This document shows, one piece after another, positions 1,966 through 9,739 of a DNA stretch of 32,891 bases (positions are counted from its first letter, which is position 1; every line of letters begins with the position of its first letter). Under the pieces are notes generated by a model. The model saw only the letters and a list, made by a program, of their open reading frames with translations, did no database searches and was not told the origin of the DNA. The DNA comes from Pseudomonadota bacterium (GTDB lineage: Bacteria > Pseudomonadota > Gammaproteobacteria > Acidiferrobacterales > UBA6901). The stretch is from positions 1 to 32,891 of the forward strand of contig DAHXOO010000027.1 of NCBI GenBank assembly GCA_027364845.1. Reading direction: 5' to 3'. Made by a program: the position numbers and the translations under genes.

Positions 1966-2016
1966 AATCAGCCCCCTAACTCGTAAACGGTTCGCATGCC
2001 CATCAGCTGGGCTAGT

Positions 2017-2043
2017 TTAGCACTCGAGACATGAGAGTGCCAA
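2017..2043 (-). promoter_or_regulatory. CIRCE (HrcA operator) overlapping the rpoH promoter
   Basis: On the plus strand the site reads TTAGCACTC, nine bases, GAGTGCCAA. The HrcA consensus is TTAGCACTC-N9-GAGTGCTAA, so 17 of 18 operator bases match and the spacer is exactly nine. It lies 52-78 bases before the rpoH start codon. On the minus strand its outer half supplies a -35-like TTGGCA (2038-2043); 18 bases later a TAAACT (2014-2019) matches four of six bases of a -10 element. HrcA bound here would sit directly on the sigma-70 promoter. The match is direct observation; repression by HrcA is inferred from the known role of CIRCE at groESL and dnaK operons. Confidence 0.85.
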
Positions 2044-2142: not shown

Positions 2143-3057
2143 CTATCCAGGCTCGATGGCGCGCAGATGTCGTCCCACCGCGAGACGCGAGCCCAACCAT
2201 CCCAGCGTAGCGCCGCCCAGAAGGAGGATTGTCCCGGCCTGTAGCCCCAAACTGGCCAGTTCAAAGCGGCTACCGTAAAGGCCTGCAAGGTTCCGCACCG
2301 GTCCGGCAAGCAGGGCCAGGCTGCCGGCCACCAGTATCCACGCAAGCAGACCCCCGAACAGGCCCTGGAACAGGCCCGCATATAGAAAAGGTCTACGGAT
2401 GAAGGCATCGGTACCGCCAATCAGCTTGATCACTTCGATCTCGGAGCGGCGGCTGAGGATGGCCAGTCGGATGGTATTGCCCACGACTAGGAGGACCGCG
2501 ATGCCGAGCAGTAATGCCAGGATCAGTACCCCCCTTTGCGCCAGCCGGAGTATGGCATCGAGTCTTCGAACCCACTCGAGATCGAACTGTGCCAGCGCCA
2601 CACCAGGGAGTTTCCCGAGGGTTTGTGCCAGCCTTTGTGCCGCACTGGCACCGGCAGCATGTTTTGCCGGTCGCACAAGCAGCACCGCCGGCAAGGGATT
2701 CGAATCGAGCAGATTGAGGGTGTCGCCGAAGCCGGAAAGGCGCTTGAACTCCTTCAGGGCGGAGGTGGGCGATATATAACGCACGCTCGCCACGCCAGGC
2801 ATGGCACGTATCTGGCCGGCGAGAGCCCGGGCCGTGGTCTCCGGAGTGTTAAGTTTGAGAAACAGCGATATCTGCGCACCCTCATCCCAGCCTCCGCCAA
2901 CGCGCTGCAGGTTGCCGAGCAGTGCGTACAACGCCGCCGGCAAAGCCAACGTGATTCCAATCACCGCGATAGTCATAAAGGCGGTGAGCGGCGCACGTGC
3001 CAGTTCTCCGAGGCTGTAGAAGAGCACCTGCAAGTGTCGCAACAGATGGTTTTTCAT
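2143..3057 (-). CDS. ftsX: cell division ABC transporter permease FtsX
   Basis: A 304-residue FtsX. One transmembrane helix near residues 21-48 (TAFMTIAVIGITLALPAALY) is followed by a periplasmic domain of roughly 120 residues, then three helices in the C-terminal half: VLILALLLGIAVLLVVGNTI, the segment starting PFLYAGLFQGLFGG, and LGLQAGTILLLGGATLGWLG. This is the standard FtsX topology. With FtsE it forms the divisome complex that activates murein hydrolases through EnvC-type adaptors by mechanotransmission, rather than moving a substrate. Its start overlaps the ftsE stop by four bases, indicating translational coupling. It ends 177 bases before rpoH, the last gene of the block. Confidence 0.97.
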   Translation of the reverse strand: MKNHLLRHLQVLFYSLGELARAPLTAFMTIAVIGITLALPAALYALLGNLQRVGGGWDEGAQISLFLKLNTPETTARALAGQIRAMPGVASVRYISPTSALKEFKRLSGFGDTLNLLDSNPLPAVLLVRPAKHAAGASAAQRLAQTLGKLPGVALAQFDLEWVRRLDAILRLAQRGVLILALLLGIAVLLVVGNTIRLAILSRRSEIEVIKLIGGTDAFIRRPFLYAGLFQGLFGGLLAWILVAGSLALLAGPVRNLAGLYGSRFELASLGLQAGTILLLGGATLGWLGSRLAVGRHLRAIEPG

Positions 3058-7756: not shown

Positions 7757-9739
7757 TCAGGCAGACAGGTCGATATCGAGCACTGGCGCTGCATCGGCGA
7801 CCGGTTCCACGGGTGCATTTAGAATCAGTGTGATTGTGTCAGCCTGTGCAGCAAGTGCATTGTTTTGGCCACGAATGCTGTCACGTGCGTGCTTTATCTC
7901 GTTCAGGCGGTCCTCCAGGGTATCGCTTGCCTTGTGGATGCGCTTGATGCTTTCGAGACGCCGGCGCAGCTGTATCTGGTGTTCGCGTACCTGCGACTCC
8001 ATGGGCGACATAATGGTTCTGAGCCAGTTGTCAGCATCGCGGTTGGCAGTAGCGAAAATTGCGCGGATGCGGGCGACTGCCGACTCGTAGAATTTCCGGG
8101 TCACTGATTTCTGCTCGGTCATCAGCAGTGACATCCCCCCAAAAAACTGCATGTGCTTGTCCTCGACGCGCTTGATCTCGCGCAGGTATTTCATCACCGA
8201 GAAACCGTGTGGTTTGATATTGGACAGGCCATGTTCCTCCTGGAACTTCCTGTATACGCCCTCCATGAGCTCCTTGATTTCCTGCGCCTGCTTGGCAACG
8301 TCTTCCATGGTGGCATGCATCTGCTTGAAGAAGGTCTGCATGCGGGTCTTGAGCCCGGATGTCGTCAGACTGATCTCCATATCGCGCTTGGTCTCGGCAA
8401 TCATCTTGTCGATGGTCTTGAGATTTAGATGCGAGTAAAGCAGGTTGGTCTGCTGCGAGAAGATGCTGCGCGTTGCCTGGAAGCGCTGCAGGCTCTTCTC
8501 GAAATGCTCCTTATCGACCCTCACCTTCTCCATCATGTGGTCGATGACGTCCAGGTTCTTGCCGCTCAGGCCTTCGAGCTCCTCCATGTGCTCTTGTACT
8601 CCCTTGAGTCGTTGCGTGAGGATGAGGCGCATGGCCTTGATGACGTCTATCATTTCGCCGCCGATGTTTTCACGCACGATGTCGCGTTTGGCGGGGAGCA
8701 TTTCCTTCCCTAGGGCGTTTTCGAGGGCGCCTATGCGGCTGCGTTCCAGGATTGCCTTGTCACCTCTTATCTTGCCAAGCAGCGCCTTCTGCGCTGATAC
8801 CGGGTAGATATTGTGCTCGCTGATCCCCAAGTGTCTGGCCGTTTCCTGAATCTGACGGTCTATTTCACGTTGCACCTCCTCCGAGTCGCGCAGTTCGTCC
8901 CACAGGCCGTCGATCTTGTTCAGCACCACCAGACGACCCTTGGCCGGGCCACCCTTGGGGTTGCTGATGAAGTCGTGCCAGACCTGGATATCGGATTTGG
9001 TCACGCCGGCGTCGGCCGCAAGGATGAACAGCACAGCATGGGCGCTCGGCAGCAGGCTTAGCGTCAGCTCCGGTTCGGTACCGAGCGCATTGAGGCCTGG
9101 CGTGTCGAGGATTACCAGGCCCTGCTCCAGCAGCGGGTGCGGGAAATTGATGATGGCGTGCCGCCACCTGGGGATTTCCACCAGCCCTTCCTCGGTGACG
9201 TGCATGCCATTTTGGGTTTCCTCCTCGGCGATGTGCAGACCCATGGATTGTGCGACTTCCTTGGACACCGTCTTAATCTGGGCGATATGCTGCAATGCTT
9301 GGGCGACCTTATCCGGAGACTGTATGTCCAGAGGTATCGTGGTCCATTCGTCCGGGAAACCCTTGAGTTCCGAGACGGTGGTGCCGCTGGTACGGGTCTC
9401 AATCGGTAGCAGTCGGATGAACGGAGCGTTCTTATTCTCACAGATGAGCTCGGTGGGGCACATGGTGGTGCGCCCAGCGCTCGATGGCAGCACACGCTGC
9501 CCGAATTCAGCAAAGAAGATGGCGTTGATCAGTTCTGATTTTCCACGGGAGAATTCAGCAACGAAGGCCACATACAGTTTGTCGTCGCGCAGCGTCGAAA
9601 GCACCTGTTCCAGGCGTTGATCGATCTGGGCGTCGGAGATTTCCTGGGTGCGCAGCCAGCCGCGGAATTCGCTGATTGCGTTGAACAGCCCCGTGCGCCA
9701 GCCGCTGTAGGCCTCGAATTGCCGCTCTATGTTGTTCAT
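7757..9739 (-). CDS. dynamin-family GTPase
   Basis: A 660-residue bacterial dynamin-like protein. The GTPase domain fills roughly residues 50-340: P-loop AEFSRGKS at 61-68 (first Gly replaced by Ala, common in this family), switch-I threonines in GRTTMCPTEL at 89-98, DTPG at 212-215 and NKID at 274-277. After it come about 300 residues of charged, largely helical sequence with coiled-coil character. No transmembrane span is evident, but the short hydrophobic MQFFGGMSLLM stretch, about two-thirds of the way along, may be a membrane-contact paddle. Such proteins remodel membranes by GTP-driven assembly; the exact role is unknown. It has its own -10 element and a structured leader, and lies downstream of mutM on the same strand. 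Confidence 0.9.
   Translation of the reverse strand: MNNIERQFEAYSGWRTGLFNAISEFRGWLRTQEISDAQIDQRLEQVLSTLRDDKLYVAFVAEFSRGKSELINAIFFAEFGQRVLPSSAGRTTMCPTELICENKNAPFIRLLPIETRTSGTTVSELKGFPDEWTTIPLDIQSPDKVAQALQHIAQIKTVSKEVAQSMGLHIAEEETQNGMHVTEEGLVEIPRWRHAIINFPHPLLEQGLVILDTPGLNALGTEPELTLSLLPSAHAVLFILAADAGVTKSDIQVWHDFISNPKGGPAKGRLVVLNKIDGLWDELRDSEEVQREIDRQIQETARHLGISEHNIYPVSAQKALLGKIRGDKAILERSRIGALENALGKEMLPAKRDIVRENIGGEMIDVIKAMRLILTQRLKGVQEHMEELEGLSGKNLDVIDHMMEKVRVDKEHFEKSLQRFQATRSIFSQQTNLLYSHLNLKTIDKMIAETKRDMEISLTTSGLKTRMQTFFKQMHATMEDVAKQAQEIKELMEGVYRKFQEEHGLSNIKPHGFSVMKYLREIKRVEDKHMQFFGGMSLLMTEQKSVTRKFYESAVARIRAIFATANRDADNWLRTIMSPMESQVREHQIQLRRRLESIKRIHKASDTLEDRLNEIKHARDSIRGQNNALAAQADTITLILNAPVEPVADAAPVLDIDLSA

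Follow-up and report, generated by a model that had tools for sequence, protein, structure and literature searches.

A CIRCE-like palindrome lying just before rpoH, the gene for the heat-shock sigma factor sigma-32, raises the question of whether the synthesis of this sigma factor might itself be placed under the heat-shock repressor HrcA and, if so, through which promoter or promoters such control would be exerted. We addressed this question in a contig of 32,891 nucleotides from a gammaproteobacterium of the order Acidiferrobacterales (the window, meaning the whole stretch of DNA analysed), in the genome to which it belongs, and in the rpoH loci of near and distant relatives.

A near-perfect CIRCE operator precedes rpoH

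The rpoH gene of the window occupies positions 1090-1965 of the minus strand and encodes a 291-residue protein that contains the Pfam sigma-70 regions, scores 382.8 bits against the RpoH equivalog model TIGR02392 (cut-off 323.1), and is closest to gammaproteobacterial RpoH sequences in the collection of named genomes compared. A Shine-Dalgarno-like AGGGGG (1972-1977, minus strand) precedes its ATG, and the 177-nt intergenic region upstream is bounded by the 3' end of a co-directional gene (2143-3057, minus strand), read as ftsX from its translation and from adjoining ftsE-like and ftsY-like open reading frames. Elsewhere in the window, a minus-strand open reading frame of 660 amino acids (7757-9739) has, judged by eye alone, the look of a dynamin-type GTPase, its P-loop being placed close to the N-terminus.

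Within the intergenic region, positions 2017-2043 match the HrcA operator at 17 of 18 bases, as TTAGCACTC-N9-GAGTGCCAA. The plus-strand letters of this 27-bp element are TTAGCACTCGAGACATGAGAGTGCCAA, with one mismatch to the consensus TTAGCACTC-N9-GAGTGCTAA; in the direction of rpoH (minus strand) the operator corresponds to TTGGCACTC-N9-GAGTGCTAA, its arms fall at 2035-2043 and 2017-2025, and 51 nt separate it from the rpoH ATG. It is the sole match at three or fewer mismatches in the window, and 100 shuffles of the window produced none, with 0 expected by chance. The original prediction of a near-perfect CIRCE on the rpoH promoter is borne out; the operator itself covers 2017-2043, and the start of 2014 given there adds the last three bases of the -10-like hexamer TAAACT.

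A compact predicted HrcA regulon with rpoH among its three targets

A search of the window's genome (G000, 3.15 Mb, 96% complete) returned a single hrcA at 220 bits. Its product carries both the C-terminal HrcA domain (PF01628, 218.6 bits) and the winged-helix DNA-binding domain (PF03444, 26.9 bits, cut-off 21), and the gene is followed in order by grpE, dnaK and dnaJ, forming an hrcA-grpE-dnaK-dnaJ operon. Exactly three CIRCE sites at three or fewer mismatches occur genome-wide, before groESL (0 mismatches), rpoH (1) and hrcA (2), which would add rpoH, as a third member, to a compact HrcA regulon. The known regulon, comprising groESL and hrcA-grpE-dnaK-dnaJ, uses the identical 9-9-9 operator, and this genome has hrcA as well as both customary targets; the difference is that in this genome a third target, rpoH, lies outside those two.

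The operator is conserved and co-occurs with hrcA

Whole-genome searches recovered CIRCE in 58 of 60 relatives, mostly at three sites per genome, as against none or one in a backward-read control. Among 56 rpoH upstream regions, taken from the window's genome and from relatives across the order and including distant members of the class, a CIRCE with at most three mismatches lies directly before rpoH in 53, representing 23 of 26 genera, so that the half-sites named in the original prediction are indeed kept in relatives. The arms are near-invariant across these loci while the spacer and flanks vary. The three loci that do not carry the site are G058, G059 and G010; hrcA was not detected in the genomes of the first two, and G010 possesses hrcA beside a decayed rpoH CIRCE.

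A wider survey covered 80 named rpoH loci from gammaproteobacteria, betaproteobacteria and other groups, with each genome searched for hrcA and CIRCE sought within 400 nt before rpoH. Both hrcA and the rpoH CIRCE are present in 38 cases and neither in 30, leaving 12 discordant loci (nine with hrcA only, three with CIRCE only); the corresponding Fisher p of about 1e-10 overstates the case, because relatives are non-independent samples and the negatives, being mostly enterics and vibrios, are themselves related. As all three CIRCE-only loci come from metagenome-assembled genomes (MAGs), of which two are small at 1.7-1.8 Mb, hrcA was likely missed there. The rpoH CIRCE is present at nearly all betaproteobacterial loci surveyed. 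The proposal that HrcA acts on rpoH draws support from the presence of hrcA and from half-sites retained across the order and broadly in hrcA-bearing beta- and gammaproteobacteria. Of the two outcomes named in the original prediction as refuting it, a genome devoid of hrcA and half-sites that close relatives do not share, neither was observed.

Some palindromes in the wide survey depart from the standard arms. One Xanthomonadales locus (L074:2948-2974) has a changed arm before rpoH, TTAGCAGTC-N9-GACTGCTAA, with a matched change in both arms; a CIRCE-like rpoH palindrome in a second (L043:2928-2954) partly shows the same arm change, and a Nevskiaceae locus (L091:2919-2945) has it in one arm only. 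These altered arms may reflect a changed HrcA specificity. In Pseudoalteromonas luteoviolacea (L064:2929-2955), a perfect CIRCE precedes rpoH, and the sole HrcA match in the genome, an open frame of 316 amino acids, shows strong divergence (E = 1.2e-11).

The element in the window combines three features expected of a CIRCE: an inverted repeat agreeing at 17 of 18 bases, an hrcA in the same genome whose product has the DNA-binding and C-terminal domains, and a position, conserved in relatives, within the promoter region of rpoH, a heat-shock gene. A chance palindrome is ruled out by the absence of matches in shuffled sequence together with conservation and co-occurrence with hrcA. The broader notion of a chance or relic sequence with no regulatory role can appeal to the imperfect consensus match and to G010, which illustrates that the site can decay, but the constancy of the arms amid variable surroundings, the lack of expected chance matches and the association with hrcA all speak against it, and we regard it as extremely improbable.

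The operator spans conserved sigma-70-like promoter elements

On the minus strand, the left arm of the operator contains a candidate sigma-70 -35 hexamer, TTGGCA (2038-2043), and the right arm is overlapped by a candidate extended -10, TGC-TAAACT (2014-2022). The two hexamers, TTGGCA at 2043-2038 and TAAACT at 2019-2014, are 18 nt apart and are spanned by CIRCE as had been proposed from the window. Across the 53 rpoH sites of the order, the -35 position reads TTGGCA in 34 and TTAGCA in 19, and every one has an extended -10-like TGCTANNNT that runs into the right arm: the arm always supplies TGC-TA(A/G), and an invariant T two bases on completes TGC-TAAAAT or a similar sequence (53/53). This final T of the hexamer occurs at none of 25 groES sites and at 40 of 41 rpoH CIRCE loci of the wide survey. 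The groES operators of the order (L013, L015, L182-L194) have a layout quite unlike that of rpoH: they sit just downstream of a TTGACA-type -35 (22/25), and a -10 resembling TATNA falls at their left arm.

A predicted sigma-E promoter is interlocked with the operator

The sigma-70-like elements that the original prediction described are conserved, but a second conserved promoter, of sigma-E type and located at 2058-2032 of the minus strand, had been overlooked. Its predicted -35, an exact GAACTT (2053-2058), lies 9 nt upstream of CIRCE at an offset that is conserved at rpoH CIRCE sites, and its predicted -10, TCTCA (2032-2036), takes two bases from the end of the left arm and three from the start of the spacer. 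The complete element, GAACTT-N16-TCTCA (GAACTTCCGGCGGAATTGGCACTCTCA, 2058-2032), is an exact instance of GAACTT-N16/17-TCNNA, the sigma-E consensus of E. coli, and agrees with the form expected of a sigma-E-dependent rpoH promoter, in which 15-17 nt separate GAACTT from TCNNA. The predicted sigma-E and sigma-70-like promoters overlap one another, and the operator overlaps the -10 elements of both.

Alignment of CIRCE sites in gene direction (rpoH, n=53; groES, n=25; hrcA, n=21) revealed that GAACTT 9 or 10 nt upstream of CIRCE, together with A as the third spacer base (51/53), is a feature of rpoH sites only. The full interlocked motif GAACTT-N16/17-TCNNA is found at 49 of the 53 rpoH sites, in 20 of the 23 genera that carry an rpoH CIRCE, as against 0/25 groES sites, 0/21 hrcA sites and about 0 after shuffling of flanks and spacer. 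That GAACTT might be an extended part of CIRCE itself is ruled out by its absence at the groES and hrcA operators.

In the wide survey, 22 of 41 rpoH CIRCE loci carry the interlocked element, and at 16 no sigma-E-type element was seen in the vicinity of CIRCE. Many Burkholderiales keep CIRCE and lack the interlocked element, so this layout cannot be called universal; in part of this group, CIRCE and the -10 are kept and the interlocked element is missing. Trinickia (L094) and G057 have a sigma-E-like promoter immediately upstream of the rpoH CIRCE and not interlocked with it. At L094 and L179, the corresponding motif is GAACTT-N15/16-TCNNA, again just upstream of the operator.

The genome encodes an RpoE equivalog that scores 332 bits against a cut-off of 236, and the gene for its anti-sigma factor, RseA, adjoins it. 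Exact matches to GAACTT-N16/17-TCTNA, a strict form of the consensus, number five genome-wide as against nine in a reversed control. Neither this count nor a search for an autoregulatory promoter before rpoE lends independent support to the sigma-E assignment: the exact matches are few, none at this strict consensus precedes rpoE, and the four besides that at rpoH do not lie at obvious envelope genes.

These observations bear on an alternative in which HrcA represses rpoH but only the sigma-70 promoter, TTGGCA-N18-TAAACT with its extended -10, is used, GAACTT not being a sigma-E promoter in this organism. The paucity of exact sigma-E-type motifs in the rest of the genome would agree with such a scheme. 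So would the behaviour of TGC-TANNNT, which varies least of all the flanking sequence (53/53 sites of the order, with the final T at 40/41 loci of the wide survey) and is retained by Burkholderiales that have no GAACTT. Set against this are the fixed offset of GAACTT and the third-spacer A, unique to rpoH CIRCE sites, the persistence of the GAACTT element where CIRCE has been lost, and the use of sigma-E to drive rpoH in enterics and vibrios, its action at the rpoH promoter being established in Salmonella and Vibrio (PMC4577112, PMC4890791). We consider use of the sigma-70 promoter alone unlikely.

HrcA might instead act mainly as a modulator of, or roadblock to, one promoter, the level of rpoH then depending, as in enterics, mostly on translation and on proteolysis of sigma-32. 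The non-interlocked arrangements in G057 and Trinickia would suit this possibility, but in the window both predicted -10 elements are overlapped by the operator, and the rpoH 5' leader has no Rfam match and a fold that is not unusually stable (z = +0.97), values with which an RNA thermometer is still compatible. We judge a mainly modulatory role for HrcA to be improbable, more so than exclusive use of the sigma-70 promoter.

A model for control of rpoH by HrcA and sigma-E

Our preferred reading, to which we assign a probability of roughly 0.8 on sequence grounds, is that HrcA represses rpoH directly by way of this element, a working CIRCE interlocked with overlapping sigma-E and sigma-70-like promoters. 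From the arrangement of the site we infer that, once on the 27-bp palindrome, HrcA would mask the -10 of each promoter and hold sigma-32 low, the sigma-E-type -10 sharing bases with the left arm and spacer and the sigma-70-like hexamers lying in the two arms. In other bacteria, HrcA is inactivated by a shortage of free GroEL/ES or by heat directly. By analogy with HrcA elsewhere, repression would be relieved through GroEL titration, and loss of HrcA activity would release rpoH, groESL and hrcA-grpE-dnaK-dnaJ together. Strong transcription of rpoH by sigma-E, itself supplied by envelope stress, would be possible only at an unoccupied operator.

Loci that lack the operator bear on how this arrangement may have arisen. 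G058, which has no detected hrcA, keeps GAACTT-N16-TCTCA with CIRCE absent; G010 keeps GAACTT-N16-TCAGA beside its decayed CIRCE; and in enterics devoid of hrcA, rpoH loci such as L065 (GAACTTGTGGATAAAATCACGGTCTGA) retain GAACTT-N16-TCTGA but no CIRCE. The window shares these GAACTT-N16-TCTGA-type elements with the sigma-E-dependent rpoH promoter (P3) of E. coli and its relatives, which the enteric loci surveyed also show; enterics have neither hrcA nor CIRCE, whereas in the window the left CIRCE arm is embedded in the sigma-E spacer and -10. Such losses would fit an older sigma-E promoter with which CIRCE became interlocked in hrcA-bearing lineages, to be lost along with hrcA.

A survey by Permina and Gelfand in 2003 reportedly covers the heat-shock regulons (HrcA/CIRCE and sigma-32) of beta-, gamma- and epsilonproteobacteria, and may already list rpoH sites. 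Placement of rpoH under CIRCE is not unprecedented in any case, a site upstream of rpoH having been predicted in Geobacter sulfurreducens in 2004 (Genome Biol, PMC545781, Table 8, position -51). That site, likewise a computational prediction, is a perfect CIRCE at a nearly equal distance from the rpoH start (-51); Geobacter sulfurreducens differs in being a deltaproteobacterium, and the portion of the source considered here describes no sigma-E element interlocked with its site (PMC545781). CIRCE at rpoH is accordingly known already, and what appears to be undescribed is the interlocked sigma-E/CIRCE architecture, of which we could find no earlier account in the literature searched, weak evidence of novelty given that subscription papers fell mostly outside it.

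If the preferred reading is correct, a heat-shock sigma factor would stand under a heat-shock repressor, and the two textbook bacterial heat-shock systems would form one hierarchy, to which the envelope-stress sigma factor would be joined at a single 45-bp element. The look of the sigma-E promoter of E. coli rpoH would then be that of a remnant left after the loss of HrcA. In this layout, bases that serve CIRCE and the sigma-E -10 alike can be separated from bases that they do not share. More tentatively, at somewhat less than even odds, the rpoH promoter of many hrcA-bearing gammaproteobacteria and some betaproteobacteria may constitute a built-in coincidence gate, in which the sigma-E spacer and -10 double as a CIRCE half-site and full sigma-32 synthesis would require both the release of sigma-E by envelope stress and the inactivation of HrcA by a shortage of chaperones. 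On this view, enterics would represent a derived state in which HrcA was lost and a bare sigma-E promoter kept.
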